From Hoeflea sp. IMCC20628 (GTDB taxonomy: Bacteria > Pseudomonadota > Alphaproteobacteria > Rhizobiales > Rhizobiaceae), in assembly GCF_001011155.1 (NCBI RefSeq), contig NZ_CP011479.1:4537662-4601661 (forward strand): 64,000 nucleotides of DNA, given 5' to 3'. A program made the position numbers and the translations under genes. The number at the start of each line of letters is the position of its first letter. Within the stretch, counting starts at the first letter, position 1. Below are positions 15,754 to 17,848 of this stretch, piece after piece. The notes under the pieces were generated by a model. It was not told where the DNA came from and made no database searches. It worked only from the letters and a program-made list of their open reading frames with translations.

Positions 15754-16579
15754 ATGGCTGATATTCAATCGGTGATGGACAAGGACAAGGTTGCGGTGGT
15801 GACGGGTGCCGCATCCGGCATCGGCCTGGCCGCAGCCAGGATCTTTGCTGCGCGTGGCATGTGCGTCGTGCTGGTCGACAATGACCGGGACAGGCTGGCA
15901 GAGGCCGAAAAGGCCGTGGCGGCACATTCAGCTAATCCTGCCACCGATATCGTGTCGATTGAAACCGATGTCAGTGATCTTGAAGCTGTCGAGGCGCTGG
16001 AGCGGGCGGTGCTGGAGCGGTTCGGCCGCGTCCACCTGCTGATGAACAATGCCGGCATCCAGCCCGGCAGCAGCGTGTTCGGGCCGCAGGCCAACTGGGA
16101 CAAGGTGCTAAGCGTCAATCTCGTCGGCATCATCAATGGCAGCCGTGTATTCGGGCCTTGGCGACATTGTAAGCGGGATCGCCGGGCGGCGTGGTGATGC
16201 CCTGCTTGGAGCCGGTATTGATGATCATGCCGGGGTGAAGGCTTTCACCGAGGCGCTTGAGCATGAGTTGCGCAACACATCTGATTGCCAGATCAGTGCC
16301 CATCTGCTGATTCCGGGGTTTGTCTACACGCCGCTGACCTCACGGGGCCGGAGCGAAAAACCGGACGCGGCCTGGACGCCGGAACAGACCGTCGATTTCA
16401 TGATCGACAGCCTGGAAAAGGGCGATTTCTACATTCTGTGCCCGGACAACGATGTCGACCGCGCCACCGATGAAAAGCGCATTGCCTGGGCCGCTGGCGA
16501 CATCATCGAAAACCGCCCGCCGCTGTCGCGCTGGCACCCGGATTATGCGGAGGCGTTCAAGGACTACCTCAAGACCTGA
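15754..16579 (+). pseudogene. SDR-family oxidoreductase, disrupted by an internal inversion
   Basis: This is a short-chain dehydrogenase. Residues 1-135 are intact: the NAD site TGAASGIGLAAARIF and NNAGIQP are present. After NGSRVFGP (about 16156) the frame runs into nonsense and stops at 16197. The C-terminal part (GVKAFTEALEHELRN onward) resumes in a different frame at about 16232 and ends at 16579. The missing middle, with the catalytic Ser and the YNVAK (YxxxK) motif, is readable on the opposite strand at about 16154-16234. The gene is thus broken by a small inversion with loss of roughly 20 bases. GAGGGAGG precedes the ATG, so translation would start but yield a truncated protein. No activity is expected unless the segment can flip back. 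Confidence 0.85.
16154..16234 (-). other. Inverted catalytic segment of the SDR gene
   Basis: Read on the minus strand this roughly 80-base segment encodes PGMIINTGSKQGITTPPGD, then PAYNVAKA, in one frame. These are the SDR catalytic Ser region and YxxxK motif. In a normal member they lie between NGSRVFGP and GVKAFTEAL, exactly the two flanks seen here on the plus strand. The right edge fits perfectly if re-inverted (NVAKA then GVKAF). At the left edge about 7 residues are missing, so the event was an inversion plus a small deletion. Confidence 0.85.
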
Positions 16580-16708
16580 GTAGGCTCCGGGAGCTTTCTG
16601 CCGCGCCGACCGGATCGACAAGGGTCTGCCTATCACATGAAAGGATTGGCAGCCCGGCCAAACCCGCCTACAAATCCCGCATTGCTGTTTCGAGCCATAG
16701 GGCTGCCC

Positions 16709-17350
16709 ATGACTTTCGTCCCTGATCTCTCCACCCTGCTCGCCTTTTTCGTGGCCTCGATCGTGCTGGCGATCACGCCCGGGCCGGACATGACGTTGTT
16801 TGTATCGCGCGCACTGTCTGATGGGCGGGCTGCGGGGTTTGCCTGTGTCGCAGGCGCGATGAGTGGAATAACGGTGCACACACTGATGGTGGCGCTGGGG
16901 CTCTCGGCGCTGGTGGTGGCGTCGCCGGCAGCATTTTTCGCGCTCAAGGCAGTGGGTGCAGCCTATCTTATGTGGCTTGCCATTCAGGCCATCCGCAAAG
17001 GTTCCAGCCTGACGCTGCCGGTATCAGGTCCGTCAGGTCGCGGCGCCATGGCGAATTGGGCGCAGGGGCTCGGGGTCAATCTGCTGAACCCGAAGATCAT
17101 CCTGTTTTTCATGACCTTCCTGCCGCAATTTGTCGCGGCATCCGATCCGCATATCACCGGCAAGCTGATTTTTCTGGGTATGTTCTTCGTGGTGGTTTCA
17201 ACGCCGATTGTCATCGGCATCGTGTTGGGTGCCCACGGACTGGCAGGCTGGCTGAAGCGCAAACCGCAGGTGATGCGGATCGTGGACTATGTCTTCGCTG
17301 CGGTGTTTTCGGTTTTTGCGCTGAAGATCTTGCTGGCCCAAAGCCGCTGA
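16709..17350 (+). CDS. LysE/RhtB family amino-acid exporter
   Basis: The 213-residue membrane protein has about six hydrophobic helices. The family motif AITPGPDMTLFVSRAL lies at residues 22-37 and GVNLLNPKIILFFMTFLPQF near 120, both diagnostic for LysE/RhtB exporters. The frame opens 72 bases upstream, but the ATG at 16709 gives the standard N-terminus. The substrate, probably an amino acid or homoserine-like compound, cannot be assigned. Its stop is adjacent to that of the next, convergent gene. Confidence 0.9.
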   Translation: MTFVPDLSTLLAFFVASIVLAITPGPDMTLFVSRALSDGRAAGFACVAGAMSGITVHTLMVALGLSALVVASPAAFFALKAVGAAYLMWLAIQAIRKGSSLTLPVSGPSGRGAMANWAQGLGVNLLNPKIILFFMTFLPQFVAASDPHITGKLIFLGMFFVVVSTPIVIGIVLGAHGLAGWLKRKPQVMRIVDYVFAAVFSVFALKILLAQSR

Positions 17351-17848
17351 TCAGCTCTCGACGTTCTCGACATCTTTCGAGCTGGCGCGTTCGCTCGGCA
17401 GCCAGCGGCCGGCATTGCGTCCTGTAAAAAGCCAGTAGACGCTGGCGCCGATGATGCCGCAGGCGATGTTGATTGCGATCAACCGTCCCGGTTCGATTGA
17501 TGCGGCTGAACCAGAGTTCATGCGTGTGACGAACGGCACGCTGGTCACCGCCAGCGCGATGACACCACCGGCCAGCGCGTAGCTCAGCCAGTCGCGCCGC
17601 CGCCAGAATTCGAAGATTGCGATGACGACAAGGGCAGGCAGCAGCACCGCGCGGGCAAACAGGCTGGAGACACCGATCACGCCGATCACCAGGGTCACGG
17701 TGAGCTCAAGCTCATTGATGCGGCCGAAATCCTCGGGCACCACCAGCCGGGCCAGAAAGGCGTAGGCGAGCCCTGCCGCCAGACAGCCGACGAAGAAGCC
17801 GAAGGCGATGGCAAACATCCGGACGAGAAGGCGGAGAATATCGCTCAT
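17351..17848 (-). CDS. Hypothetical inner-membrane protein
   Basis: The 165-residue protein has four predicted membrane helices (about residues 10-32, 48-75, 83-104 and 122-142) and a short charged tail. I recognise no named domain. It ends directly against the LysE gene (convergent, zero bases between stops). It begins 8 bases after the rlmN stop on the same strand, so it is likely the second gene of an rlmN operon. Confidence 0.75.
   Translation of the reverse strand: MSDILRLLVRMFAIAFGFFVGCLAAGLAYAFLARLVVPEDFGRINELELTVTLVIGVIGVSSLFARAVLLPALVVIAIFEFWRRRDWLSYALAGGVIALAVTSVPFVTRMNSGSAASIEPGRLIAINIACGIIGASVYWLFTGRNAGRWLPSERASSKDVENVES

Follow-up and report, generated by a model that had tools for sequence, protein, structure and literature searches.

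An SDR oxidoreductase gene at positions 15754-16579 of the window (the whole stretch of 64,000 nucleotides that was analysed) has its catalytic segment on the minus strand, with both ends of the gene on the plus strand. The host is a marine bacterium with a genome of 5.1 Mb, comprised of 3 contigs and 99.99% complete, and the inverted catalytic segment is a confirmed, real feature of this assembly. The best explanation, which we consider about 75% probable, is a single, recent event of the template-switch type that caused a micro-inversion in a conserved SDR gene.

Two plus-strand ORFs of 147 amino acids each (15754-16197 and 16136-16579) overlap in different frames, in agreement with the initial annotation, which had placed the two gene ends on the plus strand in different frames. 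The first, which matches PF00106 (E 1.1e-26) and reaches a stop soon past the left junction, contains the N-terminal half (15754-16153, plus strand), with a Rossmann NAD(P)-binding region (TGAASGIG, NNAG) and 72-87% DNA identity to 12 same-genus orthologues. This half contains the N-terminal TGxxxGxG, which we take to be the NAD(P) motif of classical SDR. The second ORF runs through the inverted core in a frame foreign to it and continues into the C-terminal half (16235-16579, plus strand), which is in normal orientation but in the other frame, as was checked. The core, (M)IINTGSKQGITTPPGDPAYNVAKA, is encoded on the minus strand at 16154-16229, displays 84-95% DNA identity to the opposite strand of the relatives, and comprises the catalytic Ser and YxxxK region (Ser and YNVAK, presumably the catalytic motif by role), out of frame with the N-terminal half. 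The gene thus shares the Rossmann motif of its N-terminal half with classical SDR oxidoreductases (PF00106), and its orthologues have Ser and YxxxK, whereas the window gene has its catalytic part on the other strand.

The three pieces become apparent when the same-genus orthologue P0001 is compared with the host's own genome: residues 1-136 match on the plus strand (85%), residues 142-174 on the minus strand (79%), and residues 168-283, corresponding to the C-terminal half, again on the plus strand (88%). Together with the opposite-strand DNA match, these pieces bear out the claim that the missing middle, with the Ser region and YNVAK, is on the minus strand. The same order, N-terminal half, minus-strand piece, C-terminal half, is found along the NCBIfam model NF004843, for which the matches are far weaker than for P0001 and all below the model cut-off: model positions 5-127 with the N-terminal half (E 6.2e-36), and two weak matches, positions 122-162 with the minus-strand piece (E 0.00027) and positions 161-204 with the C-terminal half (E 0.00028). 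NF004843 was the best NCBIfam model, and none of the best 25 of 212 models reached its cut-off; Pfam searches with the C-terminal half alone and the minus-strand piece alone gave no match. Among PDB chains, 5ig2_A is the closest in sequence.

Relative to the C-terminal part, the core is found on the strand opposite to that in the window at 16 of 16 whole-genome orthologue loci (13 from the same genus and three from outside it); among the 17 other genomes of the genus, the region was matched in 13 and unmatched in four. When named genomes were searched with the C-terminal half and the best 80 of 573 relatives compared, none of these 80 loci showed an opposite-strand catalytic motif, and the window, included as control, was scored as opposite strand. 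At 79 of the 80, a single ORF holds the C-terminal part together with the NAD and catalytic motifs; at the remaining locus (L108) the catalytic motif is on the same strand and the NAD pattern was unmatched. The sets of 16 and 80 loci overlap, as some genomes occur in both. Comparison with related genes had been named beforehand as a test, and with all relatives compared in normal orientation the objection that they might carry the same arrangement fails. The 12 same-genus genes that were translated are all intact, measure 855 bp including the stop, and have the catalytic Ser and YxxxK in frame; a thirteenth translated orthologue, from another genus of the same family, measures 864 bp. The window gene, at 826 bp, has therefore lost 29 bp compared with its same-genus counterparts, with a change of frame. 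A second copy serving as backup was ruled out: once the pieces of the gene itself are set aside, the best remaining match to the orthologue in the host genome is only 36% identical.

The junctions were defined by an ungapped three-piece (four-point template-switch) fit to each of the 12 same-genus genes. The segment matches, in reverse complement, the corresponding site in the relatives, with both flanks collinear; the fitted core extends from 16154, 16157 or 16158 to 16228 or 16229 (71-76 nt), and the fit skips 28-32 bases at the left junction and -3 to +1 at the right. In 12 of 12 genes it gained 86-98 score units over the best alignment without a switch. For L010 the gain was 88, whereas shuffling the segment 200 times gave gains that averaged 22.7 and never exceeded 40, which excludes a chance match of the inverted core. 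The same flank letters enclose 110 bp in all 13 relatives printed (one edge being extrapolated 1 to 20 bases beyond the BLAST ends for five of them) and 81 bp in the window, i.e. a larger region was replaced by a shorter inverted copy, the 1-3-2-4 pattern. Of the roughly 20 bases described at first as missing on the left, the position stands, since the loss is mostly at the left edge, and the size has to be revised to the net 29 bp; the exact join expected on the right was not recovered, as re-inverting 16154-16233 still leaves 2 nt lacking there in comparison with the relatives.

By eye, the junctions share GGCC (4 nt, 16154-16157) on the left and approximately 1 nt on the right (16228-16234, where the fitted breakpoint was also used), the latter if a single event is assumed; with an additional 24-bp deletion between near-identical direct repeats, a post hoc reading, the right junction would share six bases. 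This microhomology makes the edges ambiguous (16154-16158 on the left, 16228-16233 on the right). Microhomology of at least 4 nt has a chance of 0.023 per junction, and among random inversions of similar geometry (40,000 trials) at least 4 plus at least 1 shared bases occurred in 2.1%, and 6 plus 4 in 0.02%; the microhomology at the junctions is short and exceeds chance expectation only slightly. In two of the 13 relatives printed (L010 and L020) a 6-nt inverted repeat, CCCGGC/GCCGGG, was seen by eye at both edges.

The geometry of the segment also bears on an intragenic inverton, a reversible site-specific switch. Chanin et al. 2024 are said to have described intragenic invertons in bacteria, and the window has in common with them an inversion within coding sequence, but no inverted repeat of at least 8 nt was found bounding the segment, and the gene cannot be restored by flipping it back, bases being missing. 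Of the local pairs, the longest (16055-16069/16228-16242; 15 nt, 80%) and another of 11 nt and 91% (16125-16135/16222-16232) both have their left arm well outside the segment, separated from the breakpoint by normally oriented sequence. Matches to PF00589 or PF00239 are absent from the window, the nearest on the contig being approximately 35 kb outside it, and the inverted state occurs in none of the relatives compared (the 16 loci and the best 80 of 573). With no bounding repeat found and bases missing, a reversible switch is very unlikely, in line with the initial judgement that it was the less likely reading. Inverted repeats as the cause were likewise rejected, as no listed pair (at least 8 nt) bounds the segment.

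The opposite-strand copy, the net deletion, the short microhomology and the absence of long flanking inverted repeats support the initial reading of a template-switch or micro-inversion signature. In a template switch, the growing strand would have come off its template at the left junction during replication, aided by GGCC, and would have switched to the complementary strand, copying some 71-76 nt of it leftwards from the right side before rejoining the right flank with the net loss described above; in four-point notation this is a 1-3-2-4 event. The molecular route may have been a fork template switch, MMBIR or end joining. Small junction losses and short microhomology are compatible with end joining as well, and the features of this gene would fit two close double-strand breaks followed by religation of the fragment the wrong way round with trimming; such a course is improbable, as it would require two breaks within approximately 110 bp and the capture of a very short fragment. 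In PMC8755829, MMBIR is the preferred route for cases with very short edge repeats. DNA hairpins predicted at the junctions in 12 relatives were not more stable than those elsewhere in the gene (median fraction at least as stable 0.35-0.59), which gives no support here to the trigger by secondary structure that was proposed for E. coli.

No stop codons are present within either half up to the junctions, and the re-inverted core has zero amino-acid differences from nine of the 12 same-genus genes. When nonsynonymous counts are summed across all three pieces, nine of the ten other same-genus genes are closer to the window gene than to L010, the exception being L018 (60.5 vs 59.7). Conservation of the two halves and of the core equals that in intact genes, with no sign of relaxed selection, which suggests that the event is young relative to the divergence of the species or, less likely, that the assembly is in error. 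An assembly or sequencing artefact, with a normal gene in the living cell, would account for this conservation, but is unlikely in a genome of such completeness and so few contigs; moreover, a non-repetitive inversion with a 29-bp loss would be atypical of assembly errors, and no comparable case was found in approximately 609 kb of collinear sequence (see below). Judged from its sequence, the SDR gene is probably now a pseudogene, as it carries a frameshift and no coding frame of the plus strand includes the catalytic Ser and Tyr-Lys, and the enzyme should be dead with its catalytic residues on the other strand.

For similar events, 800 kb each of the own genome (G000) and of G010 were scanned, of which approximately 609 kb, roughly one eighth of the chromosome, is collinear. 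Thirteen opposite-strand matches were found within 400 bases of the expected place, and four of them were better than the collinear match: the SDR core, a 33-nt, a 35-nt and a 1.2-kb match. Within this sequence and the 400-base limit, the SDR core is the only opposite-strand match of 40-150 nt that beats the collinear one; as a control, planted loss-free inversions were recovered in 59 of 60 cases for 80 nt and in 55 of 60 for 40 nt. The 33-nt match (contig C1 of G000, 4835661-4835693; L190:13340-13372) is a GC-rich hairpin followed by T's and resembles a terminator, and the 35-nt match (4401448-4401482) scores 46.4 bits vs 42.8 for the collinear one. The 1.2-kb stretch (4257324-4258521; L221:15003-16199) is located in an open frame of 599 amino acids, is 88% identical to G010 in the orientation opposite to that of the alignment nearby, and is perhaps part of a larger inversion. 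A looser scan (half of the region, 1500-base tolerance) added a 40-nt and a 64-nt match (4602148-4602291), displaced by approximately 1.25 kb and hence outside the 400-base limit, which resemble dispersed repeats. Among the collinear blocks with G010 longer than 800 nt, one stops near window position 16572 and the next starts near 17387; the ORF downstream of the SDR gene (16637-17350, a LysE-like transporter by eye) lies between these blocks and may therefore differ between species.

Inversions of this kind have been described in other settings. PMC3161906 presents not-quite-reciprocal inversions from starving E. coli cells, in which a few tens of bp were gained or lost and which were attributed to in-fork template switches; the window shares with them the inversion, small junction losses, microhomology and a bacterial host, but those cases accompanied lac amplification under selection and secondary structure was invoked, whereas the window displays a natural intragenic inversion of approximately 75 nt without secondary-structure support. 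With the human-chimpanzee microinversions (PMC8755829) it has in common a short segment inverted in place and the possibility of very short edge repeats; those are 17-33 nt, mostly pure and all flanked by inverted repeats, while the window inversion is longer and has the 29-bp loss. The four-point notation comes from PMC7954356, which describes, in great apes, 1-3-2-4 events that swap a larger region for a shorter inverted one, as in the window. Small spacer inversions in yeast genes (PMC8604942) are likewise template-switch inversions in coding sequence, but consist of 2-5 bp changes between arms of more than 9 bp. PMC2483231, a bacterial paper, applies the term micro-inversion to mammalian markers only, and proposes something similar for microbes. 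Among the papers listed by the literature searches, which covered few subscription papers, none was recognised as a description of natural bacterial micro-inversions, so that their absence is not proven.

The SDR case belongs to a class of mutation already known, and for a bacterial gene the material for comparison is unusually good. Set against the 12 intact same-genus genes, it gives a well-resolved picture of inversion, deletion and frameshift arising in one event. A frameshifted gene can thus keep its missing piece on the other strand, where ordinary annotation may miss it, and the case can serve as a model for surveys that count short inverted template switches in bacteria. Tentatively, and with rather less confidence than we place in the origin of this one gene, it might be regarded as a natural 1-3-2-4 micro-inversion in a conserved gene, caught before decay, which would imply a recurrent and overlooked source of bacterial pseudogenes annotated as frameshifts.
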